Positions 28,671 through 46,888 of a stretch of 64,000 nucleotides of DNA are shown piece after piece. The position numbers and the translations under genes were made by a program. The notes beneath the pieces are model-generated. The model was given only the letters and a program-made list of their open reading frames with translations. It did not search any database and was not told the origin of the DNA. Origin of the DNA: an uncultured Carboxylicivirga sp. (GTDB taxonomy: Bacteria > Bacteroidota > Bacteroidia > Bacteroidales > Marinilabiliaceae); contig NZ_OY764327.1 of NCBI RefSeq assembly GCF_963668385.1, forward strand, positions 4,746,501 to 4,810,500. The letters are read 5' to 3'. Every line of letters starts with the position of its first letter. Within the stretch, counting starts at the first letter, position 1.

Positions 28671-29399
28671 CTATTTTATAAACTTCTCTCGTTGCTGAAG
28701 ATTAAGTAAGCCCCACAAGCCAGCCACCACAGAAACAATCGTCCAAATTCGGATGTGTTTGAGAACAATATTTGCCCAAACAGCCTCACTCATATTACTG
28801 GGTAAATCAAATGGATTTAAAAACAAGTTCCACCCACTATTTCCCAAAATTTCCATAAATATCCAGGCTAATAAACCAATTATAACTACTATAACAGCAG
28901 TACCATTTCCATTTTTAATTACAGTACTAAAGAAAAAGCCGAGCATACCAATTAATACAACCGGAACCATTAAGCGTAAGGTCATTTCCCATTTAGGTAC
29001 ATTAATCAATAAAATACTGCTTAATGAAGCCAAAATAAACACAAACCAAAACACTATAAAAAATGAGATTGCCAAACGGAACAGCCAAACTTTATAGCGA
29101 TAATTAGGTATGCCGAATAAAATCTCTAAAATACGAGCATCTTCATCATTCTGAATTCCATATGAAGTTGGAAAGAAAACGAGTAAAAAAGCCGGAAACA
29201 TCAGCTGATAATAAACTCCTTGAACCGTTTCTGTATCTGAAGTAAATAAATTAATCAAAGTCACTAAAAAGTAGAAAATAAGAGATGATCCAAGAAAATA
29301 AACAAATTTATTTCCAAAAACCACCTTCAGATTATATTTCACAAAGGTGATAGATGATCCGCTCATTACTTTATTCAGATAATATTTTATTTTATTCAT
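28671..29399 (-). CDS. ABC-2 type transporter permease
   Basis: From the ATG at 29399 the product has 242 residues with six hydrophobic helices, among them FVYFLGSSLIFYFLVTLI, LMFPAFLLVFFPTSYG, FFIVFWFVFILASLSSIL and TAVIVVIIGLLAWIFMEI. The pattern is that of an ABC-2 permease without its own ATPase. A GTG at 29423 would start 9 bp after the upstream stop; the ATG gives 33 bp. The nearest ATPase is the C-terminal domain of the upstream RND-ABC fusion, its likely partner. It is the last gene of the efflux operon. Confidence 0.82.
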   Translation of the reverse strand: MNKIKYYLNKVMSGSSITFVKYNLKVVFGNKFVYFLGSSLIFYFLVTLINLFTSDTETVQGVYYQLMFPAFLLVFFPTSYGIQNDEDARILEILFGIPNYRYKVWLFRLAISFFIVFWFVFILASLSSILLINVPKWEMTLRLMVPVVLIGMLGFFFSTVIKNGNGTAVIVVIIGLLAWIFMEILGNSGWNLFLNPFDLPSNMSEAVWANIVLKHIRIWTIVSVVAGLWGLLNLQQREKFIK

Positions 29400-29432
29400 T
29401 CGCTTCCATTTAGCATTAAACACAGCTTACAA

Positions 29433-32400
29433 TCAAATAGCTTTATTATTCATTTCCTTATTCTTCAACAACCACATATATGCGTCTTCAAGAACAGCCT
29501 GAACAGGAATGGCATTTTCTGTTGGTTTATCTTCAGTAAGACATCGAACTCTTATGTTATCTCCATCGCGCATATGATGGACAATGGTAAATTTCTGATT
29601 GACCTCATCAAACTCTGTTGCCTTAACATCGAATTGCCAAACTTTGCCCTTGGCAATATTCACCATATCGGTTGGAACTCCCCAATATTTCAAATCACCT
29701 TTTTTCATTACTGCCACCTGATTACACGAACTTGAAATATCTTCGATAATATGAGTTGAGAACAACACAACACGATTTTTACTTAACTCAACCAACAAAT
29801 TACGGAATCGGATACGCTCGCGAGGATCAAGCCCAGCTGTTGGTTCGTCAACCACCAATATTTTAGGTAGATGAAGTAAGATCATGGCTATACCAATACG
29901 CTGTTTCATACCACCCGAAAAAGATCCAATTTTATCATCTTTTCGCTCCCACATATGCACTGATTTCAACACATATTCCAATCGTTCTTTTCGGATAGAA
30001 TCAATCTTAATTCCTCGCAACATGGCTTGATAATCGAGAAACTCAAATGCACTCATGTTTTCGTAGGTACCAAATTCCTGAGGCAGGTAACCAATTAATC
30101 CTTGCAATTCTTCGCGTTTTTCAGCCGTATCAAATCCATTGATGTATACCTTACCGTAACTCTGATCAAGAATACCACAGATAATACGCATTAAAGTTGT
30201 TTTACCGGCTCCATTGGGCCCTAACAGACCAATCATACCAGTTTTCATTTCTAACGAAACGCCTTTTAAAGCTTTAAACGGTGTTTTTTCTTTACCAATA
30301 AATGGAATACCTTTTAATAATCGATAGTAACTTCTTCTGATACCTGCAAAACGCCCCGAAATTCGCTCAATATTCATTTTCTCCCTTTTGAGCTTATTCC
30401 CCGAAGCAATTAAGCCATACAATACATACCAGATTAACAGCATGCATATTGACGTAGCTGGCGAATCCCAATGAATAAAGAAAACAATGGCCGTTACCAA
30501 AGGATAAAACCACTTGATGACAAACAAAGCGCGTTTATCCCATTTCTCTGATTTTTCTGTATGCCTTTCATACCTCCATAAAAGAGCCACAGCATTGTAA
30601 ATGCTTCTTAAAATGAAATAATTTAAAATGGTAAAAACCAATCCTAAAAATGCCGAATCGAGATACCACCAAGTAAAATAAGCCATAAAACCCAATAACG
30701 GTATTTGCCAAATGAGCCTTTTAAGGGTTTCTTTCAACGATACTTCTTTTTGTGATAAAAGAAATTTATGCTTTACATCCCGTGCTTTTCGTTCGCGATT
30801 AAAACGGCCGTCTCTATCGTAAACCTTTACCAGATTTCGAACCCTTATAGTAACCTCATCCTCCTGTCCTATTAACTCACTATTGGCCATGCGAAGCGAT
30901 GATCTGACAAAATATACAATCGCCGGAACTCCTGCTATTATCAATACATAGTATAATAATTGCCATGCAAATGAAGCATCAGACCAATAGTAAACGGCTG
31001 ACATACATGCCCCCCATAGAATGAAAATGACAAGTTTTAAAGTGATCGATAACGATCGTATCCAATCAAGCGATTGCTCTAAACCAAATGCAAAAGTTGG
31101 CATAAATACTAGTGTAAGCAAAGTACTAAACGTTAAACCACCCACAACAGTAATTGCAAATGGAGCACCTAAAACACTTACATACTCCGATTTACCCATT
31201 GCCAAAGGCATCATAGCAATAATAGTGGTTATAGCTGTTATGGTTATAGGACGGATGCGTGAAATACCTGCCTGAATCAACGAACGAGCATGTCCATAAC
31301 CTTCGCGTCTTAGTTGGCGGGAGTAATCAATGAGCAAAATACCATTATTGACAACCACGCCCAACAGTATTAAAAACCCAATAAAACTATTGAAATTCAA
31401 TAATGAGTTGCCAGTAAGAACCAAAGCAAGTAATGAACCAATGGCAGCTAATGGAACAGAAAACAGCATAACAACAGGAGCAGTCAATGATTCAAAAACC
31501 GATGCTAAAATCATAAAGATAAGTATCAGACCTACGGTGGCTAAAAACTTATAATCGGCATAAATATCTTCTTCGTGAATTACATCTACTGAAACCGAAG
31601 TAGGTACAGGTATAGTTGCAACCAAATCGTCTATCTGTTGACGGGCATCTTGCAATAATGTATTAGACGAATTAACCTCATCGGCAAAACGATAAGTAAC
31701 TTCGATCTGTTTTTCCTGATTGACCCTTAATATCTCTGATCGACCTGAAGCATAATTAATTTCAGCAAAATCTCGTAAAGGAACAATGGTGTTGGCCGTT
31801 GTAGTAACATTCAACTTTTGAAGATCTTCCATGGTTTTGGCAGGAACTTCTGATTGCTGAGGATCATCAAGCGTTTTCATAACAATATCGTAGCTCTCGT
31901 TATTTACCTTCAACTGACCGCCCGAGCTCACTTCTCCTCTAAACGTTGATAACTCTGACAGTACATTTTGAGGAGCTACATTGTATAATCCCATAAGGTA
32001 AGCATCCATGTTTAAATGTACTTCGGGACGATTATTAGCTGTTGAGATACTGACACGTTGCATGTTGTCAATATTATTTTCGAGATAATATTTTATATCA
32101 TTGGCAACCATCAGCATCTGATCGTAATCTTCTCCTTTAATCACCACCTTCTCTTGCTGTTCTCCAAGCCCCATAACCGATAACATACCAGCCCCTGGAT
32201 TAACGCCAAATCCGCCACCGCCACCACCCATGGCCGATGTTGAACTTTGGGTTAAGTTTATTTCTCCTCCTTCAACATTATCTATTCGTTGTTGAATATC
32301 TTGTTTGATTTCAGGAATCGTTCTTCGGGCAATCTTCTTATAATCTTCCTTGAGTTTTACGGTTATTGCAGCTTGCTCATCCTGAACCCTACTTATTACA

Positions 32401-34175
32401 TCCTCTTTTTCTTCCAATCCATCCAATCGCTTTTCGATCTCTCGAACCACCAAATCGGTATTTGCCAATGTTGATCCCGACGACATCTCTACGCTAATAT
32501 TAAATTCGGTTGTTTCAGCCTCTCGTGCTGTTGCAATGCTTAATCCTACCGAAATGATCAAAACAACAAAAAATAAGAGTACAACACCTAAAATGGTTAC
32601 TGCTGGTTTTCGTAGTGTAGCTTTTAATAAAAGAATATAATACTGAACCACCCTATTATGGAGCGAAAGCTTTTCGAGTGCTACAATTTTATGCTTCATT
32701 ATACCCGATAAGAACAGATGACTCAACATCGGGATTAATAGCAATGCAACCAAAAGAGATACCACTAAGGTTGAAACAATTGAAACACTGACATGACGAG
32801 CCACTTCGCGAAACATCATATCTTTTGCAAAAACAAATGGTAAAAAAACAGATACCGTGGTAAGTGTTGCCGCAGCTACAGATCTCCACACCTCTTTTGT
32901 TCCCTTTATAACACTTTCTTCGTTGGAATAAATGCCTTTTGATGCTACCCGATAAATGTTTTCCATTACCACAACACTGTTATCGAGCAACATACCAATA
33001 GCTAATGCCAAACCTACCAAAGTTAGCACGTTGATAGAAATATCGGCAGCAAAAAAGAAATTGAATGCTCCATAAACCGATAATGGTATTGAAAGCATTA
33101 CCATTCCAACCAAAGGAATATTATTCAGAAAGATCCAAAGGATGAACAACGCTAAAATACCACCCACAATAGCCAATTCAATAATGCTATCAAGATTTTT
33201 CTCCATGGTATCGGCGGTATTGGTTTCAACCACCAGTTCAATCCCTTTGCTTTTATACTCCTTATTAATCTTATCAATTACTTGTAGGGTATTTTTCGAT
33301 AAATCAATCAGATTTACCTGCGAAGCCTTTGACATGGCTACCGATACTGTTTCCATGCCATTAACACGACTGTATGAGTCTTCTTCTTTTACCCCAAAGT
33401 TTATAGTTGCAATATCCTTTAATAAAACAGGACCTTCGGCTTTAACAACAATATTTCGGATTTCATCGATGGAGTTATAATCCGCTTCGGCAGTTACATA
33501 ATACCTTCGACCGTCTTTATGGACTTCTCCTGCAAAGATCTTTTCATTCTGCCCTTGGGTAATCATTTGCTGTACCTGACCTGAGGTAAGACCATAACTA
33601 TCCAGCACTTCTTGATTAAAAATGATCTCAACCGATTTTTGACGACCTCCATTAACCTGCACACTCGAAATTCCATCTATGCTTTCGAGTTGTTCGAGCA
33701 GATCCTGTTCAATAATATTTCGAATACGATCAACTCCGCCTTCGCCCCTCACCTGTATGGTCATAAACTGATTGTTCATTTGCTCCAGATCAGCCTTAAT
33801 CACCCTTGCTATCATATTTTCAGGTAAAACAGACGATGATCCTTCGATTTTTTCAACCAGTTTCAGATAGGCATACTTAGTATTGGTTTCTTTGGTCAGA
33901 TAAACAAATACAGTGGCACTACCAGGATTTATGCGGGTTTCAATCTTTTCAATTCCTTCAAGTGTACTAATCAGGCCTTCGATTGGAATCACCCCCTCCT
34001 GCTCCATATGTTTAGGATCGAGTTGCGCCGTTGCCTGAATATTGACAAACAGCATCGGAAACTCGGTATTGGGAATCAATTCAAACTTTAATTGTTTGTA
34101 TGATATGATCCCAAGCATTGTGAGTGCTACAAAAAGCATGCTGATCAGTACCTTCCTATTTATAACTTCTCTCAT
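29433..34175 (-). CDS. RND efflux permease fused to an ABC transporter ATPase
   Basis: This is one uninterrupted 1580-codon frame. Residues 1 to about 1035 are a complete RND pump: N-terminal TM helix, porter and docking region, the TM4 segment GMLLDNSVVVMENIYR, and a second TM bundle with GVVVNNGILLIDYSRQLR and ITAITTIIAMMPLAMG. Residues about 1035-1295 form a linker with about six hydrophobic helices. Residues about 1300-1580 are an ABC ATPase with Walker A GPNGAGKTT (about 1318), Q-loop GYLPQEFG, signature SGGMKQR and Walker B ILVVDEPTAGLD. The next gene is an ABC-2 permease. I infer a protein combining a proton-driven RND module with an NBD for the separate permease. Confidence 0.9.
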   Translation of the reverse strand: MREVINRKVLISMLFVALTMLGIISYKQLKFELIPNTEFPMLFVNIQATAQLDPKHMEQEGVIPIEGLISTLEGIEKIETRINPGSATVFVYLTKETNTKYAYLKLVEKIEGSSSVLPENMIARVIKADLEQMNNQFMTIQVRGEGGVDRIRNIIEQDLLEQLESIDGISSVQVNGGRQKSVEIIFNQEVLDSYGLTSGQVQQMITQGQNEKIFAGEVHKDGRRYYVTAEADYNSIDEIRNIVVKAEGPVLLKDIATINFGVKEEDSYSRVNGMETVSVAMSKASQVNLIDLSKNTLQVIDKINKEYKSKGIELVVETNTADTMEKNLDSIIELAIVGGILALFILWIFLNNIPLVGMVMLSIPLSVYGAFNFFFAADISINVLTLVGLALAIGMLLDNSVVVMENIYRVASKGIYSNEESVIKGTKEVWRSVAAATLTTVSVFLPFVFAKDMMFREVARHVSVSIVSTLVVSLLVALLLIPMLSHLFLSGIMKHKIVALEKLSLHNRVVQYYILLLKATLRKPAVTILGVVLLFFVVLIISVGLSIATAREAETTEFNISVEMSSGSTLANTDLVVREIEKRLDGLEEKEDVISRVQDEQAAITVKLKEDYKKIARRTIPEIKQDIQQRIDNVEGGEINLTQSSTSAMGGGGGGFGVNPGAGMLSVMGLGEQQEKVVIKGEDYDQMLMVANDIKYYLENNIDNMQRVSISTANNRPEVHLNMDAYLMGLYNVAPQNVLSELSTFRGEVSSGGQLKVNNESYDIVMKTLDDPQQSEVPAKTMEDLQKLNVTTTANTIVPLRDFAEINYASGRSEILRVNQEKQIEVTYRFADEVNSSNTLLQDARQQIDDLVATIPVPTSVSVDVIHEEDIYADYKFLATVGLILIFMILASVFESLTAPVVMLFSVPLAAIGSLLALVLTGNSLLNFNSFIGFLILLGVVVNNGILLIDYSRQLRREGYGHARSLIQAGISRIRPITITAITTIIAMMPLAMGKSEYVSVLGAPFAITVVGGLTFSTLLTLVFMPTFAFGLEQSLDWIRSLSITLKLVIFILWGACMSAVYYWSDASFAWQLLYYVLIIAGVPAIVYFVRSSLRMANSELIGQEDEVTIRVRNLVKVYDRDGRFNRERKARDVKHKFLLSQKEVSLKETLKRLIWQIPLLGFMAYFTWWYLDSAFLGLVFTILNYFILRSIYNAVALLWRYERHTEKSEKWDKRALFVIKWFYPLVTAIVFFIHWDSPATSICMLLIWYVLYGLIASGNKLKREKMNIERISGRFAGIRRSYYRLLKGIPFIGKEKTPFKALKGVSLEMKTGMIGLLGPNGAGKTTLMRIICGILDQSYGKVYINGFDTAEKREELQGLIGYLPQEFGTYENMSAFEFLDYQAMLRGIKIDSIRKERLEYVLKSVHMWERKDDKIGSFSGGMKQRIGIAMILLHLPKILVVDEPTAGLDPRERIRFRNLLVELSKNRVVLFSTHIIEDISSSCNQVAVMKKGDLKYWGVPTDMVNIAKGKVWQFDVKATEFDEVNQKFTIVHHMRDGDNIRVRCLTEDKPTENAIPVQAVLEDAYMWLLKNKEMNNKAI

Positions 34176-37312: not shown

Positions 37313-38377
37313 TTATTTTTTAACAATGTTAATTTTAGAACGATTTCTTAAGGTTTCGAATCCTTTTACAATCAATCTATCATTCTCATTTAGTTCCTTA
37401 CCAATCACTTCCACCTCACTCAATGTTTCAATTCCGGTACGGATGTATATCTTTTCAGCCACTTCTTTTTTAGCTACATATACCAATTTTCGGTTTCCTT
37501 CGGTTAGAATAACATCTTTGGGAATAACCAAAGCACTATCGCGATGATCAACAACTATCTCAGCTTTAACAAACATACCCGGCTTTAATAAGCTCTGTTT
37601 ATTATCAACATTTATTCGTCCTTTAAAAGTACGTGCATCCACATCTATTGCAGGAGAAAGCTCCGATATTTTACCTTTCAATGTATCGTTGGGAAGTGAA
37701 TAATTCATGATATTCACGGGCTGACCAATTTTAACATGCCCCATTAGGTTTTCAGGCATACTCAAATCCATAACCATGGTTGTATATTCCATCATTCCTA
37801 ATAAAACGGTTCCACTCTCAACTCGTACACCCGGCGAAAAATAAGGCAGGTTGGTGATAGTACCCGAAAAAGGAGCAACAATTTGCATTTTAGCCAAAGC
37901 TATCTCTGCATTCTCATATGTTTGTTTCGATGTTAGAAGCGTTTGTTCGGCATTAACCAGTTCGCGCTTGGTTACACCTCCTTTTTCAAACAAAGCTTGC
38001 TGTTTGGTGTATTCCATTTGCGAGATATCCATATCTAACTTAGCACCTTCAACATTGGCATTATTCTCGTACTCTTTATCTTCGAGCTTTATAATTACCT
38101 GTCCCATCTTAACCTGATCGCCCATTTTGAACTTATGACCAGTTGCCGGATTTGTCTGTAAGAAATAGTTACCCGCCATTTCGGAAGTTATACTTACCTC
38201 CATTGTAGGATTGATAGAACCTGTAGTTACCAAGGTTTGCTCAATGGGTTTGTACTTAACCTCCTGAACAGATACGTTTACAGCAACATCTGTATCAAAG
38301 CTAGTAGCTTCATTACGGCACGATGAAAGTGCAGTTAAGGTAGCTACAGCTATTGTAATATATGATAGTTTTTTCAT
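37313..38377 (-). CDS. RND periplasmic adaptor (membrane fusion lipoprotein)
   Basis: The 354-residue protein has a lipoprotein signal with lipobox LSSC (Cys20). It then shows the HlyD/AcrA adaptor pattern: barrel-sandwich halves (GSINPTMEVSITSEMAGNYF and MQIVAPFSGTITNLPYFSPG) flanking a helical hairpin, a beta-barrel domain (MGHVKIGQPVNI) and a membrane-proximal domain (GFETLRNRSKINIV). It should bridge the RND pumps and the outer membrane channel. It lies between the tolC-type gene and the RND genes with gaps of 18 and 16 bp. Confidence 0.93.
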   Translation of the reverse strand: MKKLSYITIAVATLTALSSCRNEATSFDTDVAVNVSVQEVKYKPIEQTLVTTGSINPTMEVSITSEMAGNYFLQTNPATGHKFKMGDQVKMGQVIIKLEDKEYENNANVEGAKLDMDISQMEYTKQQALFEKGGVTKRELVNAEQTLLTSKQTYENAEIALAKMQIVAPFSGTITNLPYFSPGVRVESGTVLLGMMEYTTMVMDLSMPENLMGHVKIGQPVNIMNYSLPNDTLKGKISELSPAIDVDARTFKGRINVDNKQSLLKPGMFVKAEIVVDHRDSALVIPKDVILTEGNRKLVYVAKKEVAEKIYIRTGIETLSEVEVIGKELNENDRLIVKGFETLRNRSKINIVKK

Positions 38378-38395
38378 CGATTATCTATTAATAGC

Positions 38396-39883
38396 TTATT
38401 GAATGGTTTCGTATTTAACTACATCAGGCATAATACTTCGCTGATTTTCGAAATCGTATAACGTCTGTAGTTTCATATTTAACAGCTCTAATTTATAGTT
38501 GATTAAAGCGTCTATTTTATCATTTTTAGCTTGTGTCAACTGGTTTTGTACCAGATTAAGATCCATGCTGGTTAAATCACCGTTTTGGTATTTTTCCAGA
38601 TTGATTTCGTAAGTTAACTGAGCATTTTCTTCATTCTTTCTGGCAATTTCTATTTGCTTCAGATAATTTTTTAGATTACGCTCAATCTGACGAACCGTTA
38701 ACACTATATTTTTCTTTTCATCAAGCAAATTATACTCATTTGTTTTTTGAGCTAATTCAGCTGCTTTCACACGCGATTTTTTTTCTCCCCAATCCCACAA
38801 AGGCACTGCCAGCGTAAATTGAATATCCTGATTATCGTTACGATTGGTATTGTCGTAAATATTTGGGAGTTTCTCTGCATTTCCAAATAATCCAACCTGA
38901 ACGGATAAATTTCCTTTAAACTCATTGGAAGCATTGGCCCTTACGACATCAAACAAACCTACTTCTATATCAATCTGACGTTGACGAATTTCCATACGAT
39001 TCTCAAGTGCAAAATCAGTAGCTGATTGCAAATCGATATCTACTGGTAACACTGAAACTTCAGCAATAACCATAATTTCTTCTGAGAAATCCATACCAAG
39101 CATCTGCTTAAAGTTATCTTTAATGTTCTCAAGATTTACTTCATTATTCTGCACAGTTGATTCACTCGACATCATATCTAACTCAGCCTGAAGCATTTCT
39201 TCTTTAGCAGTTAAACCTGCTTCTACCTTATTTTTAATGATTCCATAACTTTTTTTACGATTAGCATATTCTTCACGCGAGGTAATTAGCTCCATTTGAG
39301 CCTGGTAAATCTGATAAAAATATTGAGTAATCTGTTTCTCAACATTTAAGGCTTGCAAAGCATAATTGAGCTGCGAATTTTCGTAATTAAATTCAATCTC
39401 TTTGTACTGCATTTTGCGTGTATTGTAGGTAAAAAGAGGTTGATCTAAACGCAGATTTAAGCTATTTGTAAAACCTGTAAAAGGATTGGCCATTGGATCA
39501 TCGCGCTTATTGGTTTGCCAGCCAAAGTTGTTATTAAGCGATATAACCCCGTCGGTTAACAATATAGGCTGACTCACATTGAAAGCACCCGATGTAGTAA
39601 AGTTCTCATCGTGATACCAGGTTTGATTAGCCTGATAATAATTGCGGCTATTACTATACTGGAAGGGTGAAAGATCCAAACTAAAATTTGATTTAAGCGA
39701 TGCTTTTTGAGCATTTAATAATTCGCGGTTACGCTCCAGATTGTAGCGGGCCGTTACAATATTCGGACTGAGTTTTAAAGCTTCGTCAACTGATTGTTTT
39801 AAAGTCATCAGTCGCTGAGCTTGACTTTGCTGGGCAATCAGAGCAAAGAGAAACACAAACCATCCAAGCAAATAATTCTTCAT
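38396..39883 (-). CDS. TolC-family outer membrane efflux protein
   Basis: The 495-residue product has a cleavable signal (LGWFVFLFALIAQQSQAQ) and then two outer-membrane-efflux repeats of long amphipathic helices (for example LLNAQKASLKSNF and NYLKQIEIARKNEENAQLTY) separated by strand segments. This is the standard TolC/OprM layout, forming a trimeric channel through the outer membrane. It follows the long ABC permease gene by 20 bp, placing the outer-membrane exit between ABC and RND genes in one operon. Confidence 0.92.
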   Translation of the reverse strand: MKNYLLGWFVFLFALIAQQSQAQRLMTLKQSVDEALKLSPNIVTARYNLERNRELLNAQKASLKSNFSLDLSPFQYSNSRNYYQANQTWYHDENFTTSGAFNVSQPILLTDGVISLNNNFGWQTNKRDDPMANPFTGFTNSLNLRLDQPLFTYNTRKMQYKEIEFNYENSQLNYALQALNVEKQITQYFYQIYQAQMELITSREEYANRKKSYGIIKNKVEAGLTAKEEMLQAELDMMSSESTVQNNEVNLENIKDNFKQMLGMDFSEEIMVIAEVSVLPVDIDLQSATDFALENRMEIRQRQIDIEVGLFDVVRANASNEFKGNLSVQVGLFGNAEKLPNIYDNTNRNDNQDIQFTLAVPLWDWGEKKSRVKAAELAQKTNEYNLLDEKKNIVLTVRQIERNLKNYLKQIEIARKNEENAQLTYEINLEKYQNGDLTSMDLNLVQNQLTQAKNDKIDALINYKLELLNMKLQTLYDFENQRSIMPDVVKYETIQ

Positions 39884-42900: not shown

Positions 42901-43248
42901 CAGCACTCCCAATGTTTTGCCCACAACATAATCGATATTGGACATGTTTCGCACATAAAAGGCTTCGGTGGTATCCAACTTTTTATCTCTTCCTAAAAAA
43001 TCAGCTGATAAAAAAATAGCTATGATTGATTGCGCTATGTTTAAGATCCACATATTAAAATACGGTACTCCCGATGGAATTATTCGTCCGGGCCACGCTC
43101 CTCCATCCCCCAAACCTGCAACACCAAATAAGTTAAACATCAATAGAAACAGAATGGCAATGGCTGCAAAAATTCTAAAAAACCAGCTCCGTAGTAATGT
43201 TTTTGATTCGAACCGCGCTATTGTTCTAACATTAAATAATGAAATCAT
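39904..43248 (-). CDS. ABC-2 permease with degenerate M1-peptidase-like and golvesin-like domains
   Basis: This 1114-residue protein has an ABC-2 permease part (about 1-290, six to seven TM helices, ending near ILIAALLITGLGAVSMMSF). A long periplasmic region (about 300-900) resembles the peptidase M1 portion of ABC-permease/M1 proteins: a beta-sandwich part, then YPFKRFSIVESPINLYSY and EEVMPEMVFYPE. I find no HExxH zinc motif, so it is probably not a peptidase. The last about 130 residues (VKWQPVAGQEYFGQY to EYVIADAVKWIKK) look like a golvesin/xanthan-lyase C-terminal beta-sandwich. Its ATG overlaps the ATPase stop by 1 bp, so the two form one transporter. Confidence 0.85.
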   Translation of the reverse strand: MISLFNVRTIARFESKTLLRSWFFRIFAAIAILFLLMFNLFGVAGLGDGGAWPGRIIPSGVPYFNMWILNIAQSIIAIFLSADFLGRDKKLDTTEAFYVRNMSNIDYVVGKTLGVLKVFFVLNAVVLFIGIIFSFIGSDTSVIWSSYLIYPLLISLPTLLFILGLSFFAMTLIRNQAVTFVVLLGVVALSLFYLQNKFYGLMDVLGFFMPFMRSDFTGFGNEIDLILVRSSYLLLGLFFIFATIWRLPRLEQQKFSKTILIAALLITGLGAVSMMSFKAIRDNGNQKLRAEINKLNQQLKPSDYQITNYDINLTHLGETVGVDAKLSVKLTEGKTGDLVFALNPGLKLQSVSIENKNVNFSREAHLVIIKKSAIPKGNFDIYLNYKGAINDMAMFPEVSDETLLSLHQLDPLVANKQFSFIKNDYVLLTREANWYPVIAASLYWTRYPFIKMNLDVTSKSGLTVISQGEAQDKGDGKWSFKPDQPLNAHSIVIGRFDKLSTVIDSVEFNLYYHPKHDFFKPYFNELGDTTSVLIKSMKDDFERQLAISYPFKRFSIVESPINLYSYLRNWCLSTEEVMPEMVFYPECGGGNWQNDLSNQKRRIKNRGKDRNEEMSDKDVQIEIFKSYIGDNFIRPRRFFFGRSEEGERSVENWGRYQVFPNYFTYTNSINEEGYPLLTIALENYLHGRLSSDGPPGGFGGLSTNDEVILKLKDRSLNQLIEEEDVNVLGNVFASKGNQLISTFKVNSDAVTFDRKLNDIVTNTRFQNLTTQQFNPYMNQLAGENFNELYSNWLEDDNIPAFRFSDADVWEIKEGNRIRYFVKVSVANEGNVDGIVGFTVREGERRGGRGRFRSEFMMGGDQSSNEKGFLIEKGTTVDIGFLLDDVPRDVSVNTYLARNIPSTQRLTVNPVIKDQRVVDYFEGLRLSKNKLRYADKNELIVDNEDPGCKYVNTGESRTIKDWWLSRQNEDDDKETYSSIRFWNTPVKWQPVAGQEYFGQYLKSAYYKRKGTGEGYVSWTGQITAPGNYAVYVYVPDIRDRFRGPRGGNRGYERDFHYTVEHDDGDDDVELKITQDNNGWLYVGDYYYSEGPATIKLSDITKSEYVIADAVKWIKK

Positions 43249-44168
43249 TAGAATTGAGTTTTGGTAAGGTACTCCATAAAATATACATAAGCATGCTCAA
43301 GATTTGGTTGAACAGCGCTTGCATTCCAACCATTTAGCTTATCCGCAACAAATTCAACTTCGTAACCTGCTGCATCAGGTATAGAAGTAATTACCGGAAA
43401 CTGTTCGCTGATATTCTTCATCTGTTCGAATGAAACAGAGGTTTTAAAAACATGACCTTCGCTTTGTTTGATAAACTGCTCTGGCGATCCTGAGAAATGT
43501 ACCTGTCCACTGTTTAACAATGCCATTTGGCTACAGGTCGAAGATATATCTCCCACAATATGAGTGGATAAAATAATAATAACATCTTTCTGACTAAGAT
43601 TGGATAGAATATTTCTGAATCGTATTCTTTCTTCGGGATCTAGCCCCGTAGTAGGTTCGTCAACAATCACAATTTTAGGATCTCCGATTAACGCCTGTGC
43701 AATTCCCAATCGACGTTTCATACCTCCTGATAATTTATTGGCAAATCGATTTCGTACATCAAACAATCCTACTTGTTCCAACAGTTCATCTACGGCAACT
43801 AAACGTTCTTTCTTGCTTTTAATGCCAGCTAACGAAGCTGCGTAATCCAAAAATTCCCATGTGCGAAGTTTGGCAAAAAATCTAAAATCCTGAGGTAGGT
43901 ACCCTAAAAACGAGCGAACTTCGCGTCGATGTTTTGATAAAGGCATATCATTTACATAAACCTCACCATTCGTTGGTTTCAAGAGCGTAACGAGTATTCG
44001 CATTAAAGTAGATTTGCCGGCTCCATTAGGTCCCAGCAATCCAAACATACCCGGATCGATCTCTAGATTAACCCGATTAAGTGCTCTGAAATCATTTTTA
44101 TATATCTGACTCAGATCTTTGATTTCTATTTTCAAGATTTTATGATTTAGGTTAATTTGTTTTAGCAA
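43248..44168 (-). CDS. ABC transporter ATP-binding protein
   Basis: The product (up to 306 residues) is a canonical NBD: Walker A GPNGAGKSTLMRI, Q-loop GYLPQDFR, signature LSGGMKRRLGIAQ, Walker B IVIVDEPTTGLDPEERIRFR and switch His in LSTHI. No ATG is available; TTG codons at 44168 and 44135 are the start candidates, the second giving MKIEIKDLSQIYKND. It overlaps the permease gene by 1 bp (TAATG), implying translational coupling. Its sequence is strikingly like the C-terminal NBD of the RND-ABC fusion. It is the first gene of the seven-gene efflux operon. Confidence 0.93.
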   Translation of the reverse strand: MLKQINLNHKILKIEIKDLSQIYKNDFRALNRVNLEIDPGMFGLLGPNGAGKSTLMRILVTLLKPTNGEVYVNDMPLSKHRREVRSFLGYLPQDFRFFAKLRTWEFLDYAASLAGIKSKKERLVAVDELLEQVGLFDVRNRFANKLSGGMKRRLGIAQALIGDPKIVIVDEPTTGLDPEERIRFRNILSNLSQKDVIIILSTHIVGDISSTCSQMALLNSGQVHFSGSPEQFIKQSEGHVFKTSVSFEQMKNISEQFPVITSIPDAAGYEVEFVADKLNGWNASAVQPNLEHAYVYFMEYLTKTQF

Positions 44169-44411: not shown

Positions 44412-45308
44412 CTATAATCTACCATGTCTACCTTTGTGTTGGAAACCTCTGGTATCAAATGCCATTTTTTGCTCATCGGTTAATTGACTGCGCACTTCAA
44501 TACGATGGTCGGCTTTAATTTGTGCTAATTGTAAGCGTATTTTTCCTTGTTCTGTAATTATTTTATCTACTTTTTTCAAATCAATATTCTTACCTGTGGT
44601 TTGAGTTTTGAGTTGAGCATTCAATTCATTTAACTGATTTTTAAATCCTTGCTCCTTTTTCAATAATTCAAGGCGTGAACTTTCCATAAATGCTTTCTGC
44701 TCGTCGTTTAAATTCAATGCTGCCAATCCTTTGCCCTGTCCTTGCCCAATTCGTGGACATGCATTACGACCTTGCCCCTGGCCATTACCTTTGTTCATTC
44801 CCTGTCCTTTACTGCGCTGACCATTACCCCGATTCATCTCTTTGCCGTTACATCCAACGCATTGTCTCTGGCCTTTACCATTCCTCATTTGCTTATTACC
44901 ATGAGCCATGGAGCCATTAGGCCCTTTTCTGCGAGCATCAAACAAAACAATCTGATCATCGGTTAAATTTGCCTTTACATCCTGATCATGTCTGATTCTT
45001 TCTTTTTGCAGTTGAGTTTGAATAGTATTAATTGACGCTAAACAATCGTATAGGGCTTCTTTATTTAGTGGCTCAGTTGTTTCCAAAGTGCGTTTTTTTG
45101 CATGTAATTCATTTAACTCGTTATGCTGAGCCTGTGTTTTTTGAAAAAAAGTAACACGCAATTCGTTTACTTTATCTTGCTGTTCTTGTGTCAAATCTTG
45201 CAAAATACAAGTTTGAGATTTGTTTCCTGCTCTACGCTGCGCTTGGGCTGTTGTCGATACGGCAACCATAGCAATTGCTATAAAACCCACAAAAAGTTTT
45301 GTTTTCAT
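44412..45308 (-). CDS. Tandem Spy/CpxP-like (LTxxQ) periplasmic protein
   Basis: The 298-residue product has a Sec signal (LFVGFIAIAMVAVSTTAQAQ) and two Spy/CpxP-like helical modules. LTxxQ-type motifs are LTQEQ (about 38), LTDDQ (115), LNDEQ (198) and LTDEQ (274), so the module is duplicated. Between them lies a low-complexity linker (about 130-190) of Gly, Asn, Gln, Lys and Arg with three Cys, including CVGC. Spy and CpxP are periplasmic chaperone or stress-sensing proteins. It lies downstream of the sigma factor group and upstream of the efflux operon. Confidence 0.85.
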   Translation of the reverse strand: MKTKLFVGFIAIAMVAVSTTAQAQRRAGNKSQTCILQDLTQEQQDKVNELRVTFFQKTQAQHNELNELHAKKRTLETTEPLNKEALYDCLASINTIQTQLQKERIRHDQDVKANLTDDQIVLFDARRKGPNGSMAHGNKQMRNGKGQRQCVGCNGKEMNRGNGQRSKGQGMNKGNGQGQGRNACPRIGQGQGKGLAALNLNDEQKAFMESSRLELLKKEQGFKNQLNELNAQLKTQTTGKNIDLKKVDKIITEQGKIRLQLAQIKADHRIEVRSQLTDEQKMAFDTRGFQHKGRHGRL

Positions 45309-45406
45309 TATACCAAAATTTTACTTGTAAATTGATGTAATTATCCCATTAAGCCAAATGCGCATTTGTCTTTTAATTGATATTCAATAATTTTAAAGTG
45401 ATAATA

Positions 45407-45913
45407 CTAACGAGGTCCTTTACCTCTCCTATGCCTTCCCCGCGGTTTTTCCATCCAATGTCGGAAAGTTTGATCTAGTTTCTGTTTTTGCTCTTCATTT
45501 TTACATACCCGTCTAACCTTACGGTAGTGAGTGAAGTTCAAATATTCTATATTTTTCTGTAATTCTGCTATTTTCTCTATACTCTCATCAACAACACTTG
45601 TATCAGCTACACCTGTAAAAGTTTGATCCATTAAAACCTCTTTTAGGCTATCAATTTGTTTTTGATAAGCGAAAATCTGACTTAAATGCTCTCCTCGCAA
45701 GCGTTCAAATTCATTAAACTGTATAGTGTCTAAATCTAACTTCTGCATGAATTGTTGCTTCCATTGCTTTTTCATCTTCTCTTGGCTAGCATTTTTAAGA
45801 CCACCAGCTTCGTTACTATCGCCCGAGTTAGCTAACCATAAACCCAATACAATTATGTTGCCTACAAAAAATACAGCCAAAATAACCCAACATATTTTAC
45901 AACTCCTGCCCAT
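45407..45913 (-). CDS. Membrane-anchored CnrX/Spy-like periplasmic sensor protein
   Basis: The 168-residue protein has one N-terminal TM helix (ICWVILAVFFVGNIIVLGLWL) and a helical periplasmic domain resembling heavy-metal sensor/CpxP-like proteins (KLDLDTIQFNEFERLRGEHL; IEYLNFTHYRKVRRVCKNEE; FRHWMEKPRG) with a basic end. In cnr-type systems such a protein controls an ECF sigma factor through an anti-sigma protein. It starts 2 bp after the stop of the putative anti-sigma gene. Confidence 0.78.
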   Translation of the reverse strand: MGRSCKICWVILAVFFVGNIIVLGLWLANSGDSNEAGGLKNASQEKMKKQWKQQFMQKLDLDTIQFNEFERLRGEHLSQIFAYQKQIDSLKEVLMDQTFTGVADTSVVDESIEKIAELQKNIEYLNFTHYRKVRRVCKNEEQKQKLDQTFRHWMEKPRGRHRRGKGPR

Positions 45914-45915
45914 AA

Positions 45916-46260
45916 TTATTTAGTTTTTTCTGAAGAAGCTAAAAGCTCAATATCATAGTAAACCGACCAATGACTATTCTCATTATTTTCATAAGCACTT
46001 GCCCACTCTTCAACTACCTGATTTTCTGCTGAAGCATTAATTTGTTTCAAAACCAATAGTAAATTGCCTATTAACATCACAAAAGCCAAAGATGCAGCGA
46101 TATTAACCATGTATCGTAAATATGGATGAATCTTTGATATATTATCTACTCGATCCATTACCTTATTAATAAAATCACTGCTTATATTCAGTTCTTTATC
46201 AACTAAAGGTGTATCGATAATATCTTCAACTTTTCCTGTATGTTTACTAAATTCTTTCAT
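45916..46260 (-). CDS. Putative anti-sigma factor, single-TM protein
   Basis: From the ATG at 46260 the protein has 114 residues: a cytoplasmic N-terminal segment (about 1-58), one TM helix (MVNIAASLAFVMLIGNLLLVL) and a short periplasmic tail. This topology and its position between an ECF sigma gene and a CnrX/Spy-like gene suggest an anti-sigma factor, though no zinc-binding HxxxCxxC motif is present and I do not recognise a family. A TTG at 46293 with AGGAAG upstream is an alternative start that adds 11 residues. Confidence 0.65.
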   Translation of the reverse strand: MKEFSKHTGKVEDIIDTPLVDKELNISSDFINKVMDRVDNISKIHPYLRYMVNIAASLAFVMLIGNLLLVLKQINASAENQVVEEWASAYENNENSHWSVYYDIELLASSEKTK

Positions 46261-46312
46261 CTCTTTGCTTTCATTATATTTGACGATAATCAATCAAGCT
46301 TCCTGCGTTTTT

Positions 46313-46888
46313 CTAGTAAATTTTCTCTTTTTGCATCATTAAGATCTCTTTCAACTTCTTTTTTGCTCTAACCAAAAGAGATTCTACAGAGCCTTCAGAA
46401 ACTCCCATCACATCAGCTACTTCTTTTTGCGATAATTCATCTAGTTTTGATAACGTTAATGCTACTTTTTGTCTTTCAGGCAATTTTTCCATTGCCTGAA
46501 GTAAAATTTTCTTCCGCTCTTCCAATTCTATATCCTGATCAACATCTTCACTTGAAACTATTGATAAGTTAGATAATTCGGTATTGTCCATTGATGATAA
46601 AACTCCGTATCCACGCTTCTTTCGCTTTTTTTGCCTCAAATAATCCAATGATTTATTCACCGACAATCGATATAACCACGTTGATAAACTAGCTTCCTCT
46701 CGATAACTCGAAATAGATTTATATACTTCAACAAAAACTTCCTGAGCAATATCCTCCGCATCTTCTAATTGATTAACAAACGACATACAAATATAAATCA
46801 CCCTCTGATGATGTAAGGTAACCAGCTGCCTAAAAGCATCTCTATTACCTTCCTTTACCTGTTTTATTATTAGTTTGTCGTCAATCAT
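46313..46888 (-). CDS. ECF (RpoE-like) sigma factor
   Basis: The 191-residue product has region 2 (VTLHHQRVIYICMSFVNQ, EDAEDIAQEVFVEVYKSI, TWLYRLSVNKSLDYLRQ) and region 4 with its helix-turn-helix (LSQKEVADVMGVSEGSVESL), with an unconserved acidic linker between. It should direct RNA polymerase to envelope-stress promoters. It is followed by the putative anti-sigma gene and the two CpxP/Spy-like genes, the usual arrangement of an autoregulated ECF operon. A sensor kinase gene is divergent, 182 bp away. No TAnnTTTG element is found upstream, consistent with autoregulation. Confidence 0.92.
   Translation of the reverse strand: MIDDKLIIKQVKEGNRDAFRQLVTLHHQRVIYICMSFVNQLEDAEDIAQEVFVEVYKSISSYREEASLSTWLYRLSVNKSLDYLRQKKRKKRGYGVLSSMDNTELSNLSIVSSEDVDQDIELEERKKILLQAMEKLPERQKVALTLSKLDELSQKEVADVMGVSEGSVESLLVRAKKKLKEILMMQKEKIY

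Follow-up and report, generated by a model that had tools for sequence, protein, structure and literature searches.

Background

RND pumps, usually driven by protons, and ABC exporters, driven by ATP, are regarded as distinct classes of transporter. In the genome of an uncultured Carboxylicivirga sp., assembled as one contig of 6.27 Mb, a preliminary description of a stretch of 64,000 nucleotides (the window) reported a single protein containing both an RND permease and an ABC ATPase. Coupled energy inputs or obligate co-assembly of two transporters were offered as its possible meaning. What does such a covalent union join together, and is it a property of more than one genome? No description of an RND-ABC fusion was found in the partial full-text literature searched, which included few subscription papers and no bioRxiv preprints, and a search by locus tag found no paper on such a fusion in the same literature. 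A word search of a survey of HME, NFE and HAE-1 pumps (PMC10872679) found neither "ABC" nor "fused". Specialist databases may list the fusion.

Results and discussion

Domains of the fusion protein

The frame of 1580 codons proved to be open throughout (Table 1), and the mass calculated for its product is close to 178 kDa. The ACR_tran match covers positions 5-1016 of the 1021 in the profile, which is practically the complete profile and bears out the complete RND permease that had been placed at residues 1 to about 1035. The full ABC_tran profile (1-137 of 137) was matched at residues 1303-1447 with an E value of 6e-28. RND and ABC models of NCBIfam were also matched, all below their cut-offs (best 25 of 189 matches); for the RND subfamilies, the scores were 436.8 against a cut-off of 1250 (NF033617), 314.4 against 1250 (NF000282) and 297 against 940 (TIGR00915).

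Table 1. Positions in the window of the fusion gene, its parts and the neighbouring genes
Feature	Position	Strand	Evidence
RND-ABC fusion gene	29433..34175	(-)	Single open frame, 1580 codons/1580 aa; Pfam; conserved
RND permease module, residues 4-1028	31092..34166	(-)	PF00873 (ACR_tran), E 3e-152
Pair of additional membrane helices following the RND module, residues about 1036-1104	30864..31070	(-)	Hydropathy peaks at 1055 and 1082; model helices 1044-1064 and 1069-1098
First strand and A-loop of the split ATPase, residues 1109-1120 (Tyr1119)	30816..30851	(-)	Best-scoring 12-mer of the linker (1030-1299) in 72/72 fusion proteins; model strand 1110-1115; Tyr in 72/72
Membrane insert within the ATPase domain, residues about 1124-1298	30282..30806	(-)	Hydropathy and model; about 4 membrane helices (approximate)
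ATPase core (Walker A, Q-loop, signature, Walker B, H-loop), residues 1301-1510	29646..30275	(-)	PF00005 (ABC_tran); motifs; fold match
Stand-alone ABC ATPase, nearest kin of the fused ATPase	43248..44168	(-)	PF00005; tree
ABC-2 permease with large extramembrane part, 1114 aa	39904..43248	(-)	M1-aminopeptidase-like segment (weak); Golvesin_C; no HExxH in the window copy
TolC-like outer membrane factor	38396..39883	(-)	PF02321, E 5e-42
Membrane fusion protein (periplasmic adaptor)	37313..38377	(-)	TIGR01730 above cut-off
Partner RND permease, 1031 aa	34201..37296	(-)	PF00873, E 5e-217
ABC-2 type permease, 250 aa, last operon gene	28671..29423	(-)	Fold matches; Pfam matches of the family
Spy/CpxP-like protein (Metal_resist, LTXXQ)	44412..45308	(-)	Pfam; possible regulon member, putative role
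Small protein, perhaps CnrX/Spy-like (by eye)	45407..45913	(-)	No Pfam match above cut-off; comparable frames next to the operon in L049 and L051
ECF sigma factor	46313..46888	(-)	TIGR02937 above cut-off

An ATPase domain split by a membrane insert

The ABC ATPase is complete, as had been proposed, but it does not begin at about residue 1300, since its first strand (beta1) and A-loop lie at residues 1109-1120 and are parted from the core by a membrane insert. In the stand-alone ATPases of the operon and of the same genome, the strand and the A-loop aromatic are only about 20 residues ahead of Walker A. We made a position-specific score for this beta1/A-loop segment from 17 stand-alone ATPases of the operon and genome. 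Residues 1109-1120 were the top 12-mer not only of the linker (Table 1) but also of the entire protein in the window copy and in seven of seven divergent proteins, and the score of the window copy was equalled in 3 of 1000 shuffles. From the A-loop motif to Walker A there are 198 residues in the window protein (130 to 246 in the 74 of 79 proteins where the text pattern was found); Tyr1119 is present about 200 residues upstream of Walker A and not close ahead of it.

By hydropathy, the strand follows two helices and precedes about four more, whose peaks are modest. The AlphaFold2 model of residues 1030-1580 (60 rows, mean pLDDT 82, pTM 0.60) placed helices after the strand through residue 1265 and another helix to residue 1289, followed by the ATPase core, the fold of which matched solved ABC ATPases (4yer, E 5e-18). 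The 12-mer score and the predicted strand suggest that beta1 packs onto the core; as the fold search of the ATPase half reports no aligned ranges, this packing is read from the sequence and the predicted strand. The insert matched no Pfam family above cut-off. By eye, it is shorter and apparently of two helices in L166:6552-11078 and L167:5348-9943, and the inserts of L164 and L165 are longer, with extra polar sequence. PADLOC matches to the ATPase part were set aside as generic ATPase similarity. To our knowledge, an ATPase domain interrupted by membrane helices is an unusual arrangement.

The operon and a possible envelope-spanning machine

Neither the split domain nor the spread of the fusion nor its operon partners had been noticed in the preliminary description. 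The fusion is gene six of seven, in the order ATPase, ABC-2 permease with periplasmic part, outer membrane factor (channel), membrane fusion protein, RND permease, RND-ABC fusion and ABC-2 permease; the upstream genes of the operon run the same way and are spaced by -1 to 25 bases. The operon thus supplies the remaining subunits of a complete ABC-2 exporter, namely a second ATPase and two ABC-2 permeases. Both permeases look like ABC-2 proteins when judged by their families rather than by the window copies alone, the fold matches being weak. In the N-terminal membrane part of the 1114-aa permease, ABC2_membrane_2 was matched in seven of eight members (best 2e-7; window copy E 0.068). Golvesin_C was present in all eight, and a segment was weakly similar to M1 aminopeptidases (3cia, E 0.001); HExxH is missing from seven of the eight, the other having such a string at residue 885. 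For the 250-aa protein (model pLDDT 88), the first 14 fold matches were ABC permeases (NosY, ABCG), with probabilities up to 0.99 but E values of 0.17 or worse, which we count against our main reading. ABC2_membrane_3 was matched by 14 of 61 members of its family (best 6e-8), but no ABC-2 family by the window copy. This result and the matches of nine of the 61 to Acyl_transf_3 (best 0.0019) also count against this reading, and a PHROGs search with the 250-aa protein was without match.

We judge it somewhat more likely than not that the fusion ties an RND pump of the tripartite kind to a heteromeric ABC-2 exporter, the two working as one envelope-spanning machine. The two RND proteins would form a heterotrimer, for which MdtB2C, where two different RND proteins share one trimer, offers a precedent (available parts of PMC4338810 and PMC8277102). 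In a dimer with either the stand-alone ATPase or another fused copy, the fused ATPase would drive both ABC-2 permeases, the insert perhaps anchoring it in the membrane beside its permease. A trimer with two fused copies would offer two fused ATPase domains, whereas the single domain of a trimer with one fused copy could pair with the stand-alone ATPase. Since an RND trimer and an ABC dimer differ in symmetry, any stoichiometry is guesswork. The permeases might move a hydrophobic or lipid-like substrate from the cytoplasm or the inner leaflet; the sequences of solved ATPases nearest to the fused ATPase are those of the lipid exporters ABCA1/3/4/7. The RND part would then take the substrate on the periplasmic side and expel it from the cell by way of adaptor and channel. 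The genes for an ECF sigma factor and Spy-like proteins upstream of the operon suggest induction by envelope stress or metals; the same region (window positions 44412-46888) also contains a short protein that may be the anti-sigma factor of the ECF sigma factor.

Of the two meanings proposed at the outset, obligate co-assembly fits well with the operon and with the co-occurring subunits of an ABC-2 exporter, a support at the level of genes, and coupled energy inputs are possible. On a more tentative reading, to which we give rather less than even credence, there is one exporter with two engines in one chain, in which ATP hydrolysis by the ABC-2 part would load the substrate and the attached RND trimer would expel it. 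This reading includes, at the same tentative level, an ATPase domain whose chain passes through the membrane after the first strand and before the core.

Relay residues of the RND part

A different explanation is that the fused ATPase powers the RND part directly, ATP replacing or assisting the proton relay, so that the protein would be an ATP-driven RND pump. In the RND part of the fusion, the columns that we take to be those of AcrB D407, D408 and K940 contain D398 (72 of 72 proteins), N399 (71 of 72) and N943 (72 of 72). An AcrB-type relay of two TM4 acids and a TM10 lysine is therefore not present, and Asn in place of the second acid and of the lysine, found in all 15 aligned partner RND proteins as well, speaks for direct powering. 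However, among 15 other RND proteins fetched from the same genome, three (L154, L158 and L162) have Asn at both positions in frames of ordinary RND length (1018-1145 aa), and four (L003, L006, L155 and L156) have D, D and K in the matching columns. Loss of the relay is thus not special to the fusion, and the AcrB relay cannot be assumed. Furthermore, the two ABC-2 permeases of the operon would need an ATPase. We therefore regard direct powering of the RND part as unlikely. The earlier statement that both modules look functional by motif holds for the ABC part, the catalytic residues of which are described below; in the RND part, the two Asn residues qualify it.

Catalytic residues and selection in the ABC part

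The fusion could instead be a regulator, its ATPase sensing ATP or the state of the ABC exporter and gating or positioning the RND part while powering neither half. The membrane insert and the tether could serve such gating, and the second ATPase of the operon could by itself power the ABC half. Against this stands the conservation of the catalytic residues. Thirteen positions (A-loop Tyr, Walker A, Q-loop, signature, Walker B, D-loop and H-loop) were checked in 72 aligned proteins; 12 were invariant in all 72, and the remaining one, in Walker A, was Thr or Ser. Walker A, Q-loop, signature, Walker B Glu, D-loop and H-loop, by which we recognise an ABC ATPase, are accordingly found in every protein, and conservation within the fusion is highest in the core round Walker B and the H-loop. 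Among pairs that are mostly near or past saturation at silent sites, dN/dS was 0.01-0.03 in the ATPase core (four close pairs), which we count in favour of the main reading, 0.07-0.11 in the membrane insert (computable in two pairs) and 0.43 in the two extra helices (the one pair not saturated, with few changes). A purely regulatory ATPase seems to us quite improbable, and the proposed tie between pump and exporter is preferred.

Co-occurrence, spread and ancestry

Two independent transporters might merely share an operon, the fusion balancing their expression and nothing more. Each half, RND and ABC, does look complete. In eight further genomes, all seven genes were found in this order in six (one with the operon over two contigs, one with an extra frame), and the other two are cut by contig ends. 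The 250-aa permease follows the fusion in 70 of 80 loci, and in the other ten the sequence stops within the fusion or no more than about 0.7 kb from it, or the permease is cut. In L049, a 214-aa frame on the operon strand (L049:1944-2585) lies between the two genes, where most loci have little gap.

Of 295 genomes of the order, 39 have the linker, and exactly these 39 have the 250-aa permease. The 1114-aa permease was found in 41, namely 38 of these 39 and G049, G552 and G587. The contigs of the latter three stop within or ahead of the fusion, and that of G651 starts within it; in each of these four exceptions to co-occurrence, a contig end thus interrupts the operon. Further 1114-aa permease copies outside the operon in G585, G593, G510 (broken) and G674 count against the main reading. 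These copies (L179:10372-13818, L183:8331-11663, L184:6637-9975 and L181:3-5900, that of L183 being in two pieces) are in genomes that also carry the operon. The shared set of 39 genomes for the fusion and the 250-aa permease, and the persistence of the fusion, split domain included, at identities as low as about 29%, make mere co-location very unlikely.

The fusion is widespread but patchy. As a single frame, it was found over the whole protein in 24 of the 60 genomes searched (the source genome included), at 46-100% identity. One stop was flagged in five of these 24 matches, yet stop-to-stop frames exceed 1500 aa in all of them. In five further genomes of the 60, the fusion is cut by contig ends, and one of these, G013, also has an internal stop. 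Within the genus, 12 of 14 genomes have the single frame and the remaining two are cut. A linker profile (A1), built from 23 of the 24 rows, matched 284 stretches in a collection of named genomes, of which the best 80 were kept; some of these records are the same assemblies as in the set of 60. The frame is uninterrupted at no fewer than 1550 aa, that is at least 1550 aa, in 71 of the 80 loci. Five others are cut by contig ends, one (L111) has a 1525-aa frame with masked stretches, and three (L070, L075 with masked bases, and L122) are broken; these three and G013 count against the main reading.

Among the best 80 of the 284 matches, the closest named records carrying the linker are Carboxylicivirga and other Marinilabiliaceae. 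The linker is also present in records named Bacteroides bouchesdurhonensis, Parabacteroides sp. and Tannerella sp., so the system is not limited to the family of the window. Two metagenome records with the linker, L072 and L107, are titled as other phyla (titles only). In even samples, the linker was present in 39 of 295 genomes and 29 of 178 genera of the order, and in 6 of 394 genomes of the phylum, two of the six lying outside the class. The fusion frames listed in the search of the order are all at least 1515 aa, except for four (914, 567, 785 and 504 aa) that are each cut by a contig end. The same architecture, which it had been proposed to look for in other Bacteroidota, is thus present there. 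Neither a stop or frameshift between the modules nor confinement to this genome with a degenerate ATPase, the two outcomes named beforehand as fatal, was found: the frame is uninterrupted in many genomes and the ATPase is intact. An assembly or annotation artefact has next to no chance of being the explanation, because the single frame recurs in many separate assemblies (24 of the 60 genomes, 71 of the 80 named-record loci); an artefact of one assembly was accordingly rejected.

A distant form of the fusion and operon, with 28-29% identity, was observed in L168, L169 and L170, where the channel gene is the last of the operon; these contigs belong to two genomes with 7-8% contamination, so that the true host is uncertain. 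No unfused ancestor was found in the genomes searched, none of the searches being centred on another phylum, and an RND-only match in G049 was rejected as an unfused form because of a contig end.

In quick trees, the fused ATPases formed one group (30 rows, SH-aLRT 84) and the operon ATPases, all eight of the main form and none of the distant form, a separate one (support 99). Jointly they were set apart from 15 other ATPases of the genome (SH-aLRT 98), the nearest kin of the fused ATPase being the operon's own. Fused RND proteins (15 rows, support only 77) and partner RND proteins (15 rows, 100) were likewise separate groups. A duplicated ATPase may have been joined once to an RND protein before the operon spread, an ancestry that is tentative owing to long branches among the other ATPases.

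Relation to known systems and significance

MdtABC is not known to have an ATPase domain or ABC permeases and keeps the DD/K relay, and thereby differs from the fusion system. Exporters of the GldA/DrrA/ABCA type (TIGR03522, TIGR01188, ABCA1/3/4/7), families that use ABC-2 permeases, belong to the same ATPase sequence group as the fusion, but their ATPase is not joined to an RND protein, and the fusion is below the cut-offs of TIGR03522 and TIGR01188. The best PDB sequence match of the fusion is 9lyq, MdtB, and no PDB sequence had its best stretch over both halves (both among the best 60 of 170 matches). As far as the gene pair is concerned, E. coli MdtABC resembles the operon in having two adjacent RND genes, encoding related permeases, together with an adaptor (available parts of PMC4338810). 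MacAB-TolC is similar in combining an ABC exporter with an adaptor and a TolC-type channel, but the ATPase of MacB is joined to its own four-helix permease and not to an RND protein (PMC8277102 and PMC5595328, in the parts available). The same genome also has an RND protein with a C-terminal OEP (outer membrane efflux) domain (L008:1474-5817, 1447 aa), in which the partner is the OEP domain and not an ATPase.

The fusion poses the question of how a threefold pump accommodates a twofold ATPase. Its widely kept covalent union and fixed partner genes provide a route to test the mechanical linkage of proton- and ATP-driven steps. If the chain does hold two engines, tripartite pumps with a dual power supply would form a new class, present in Bacteroidales and perhaps in other groups as well.
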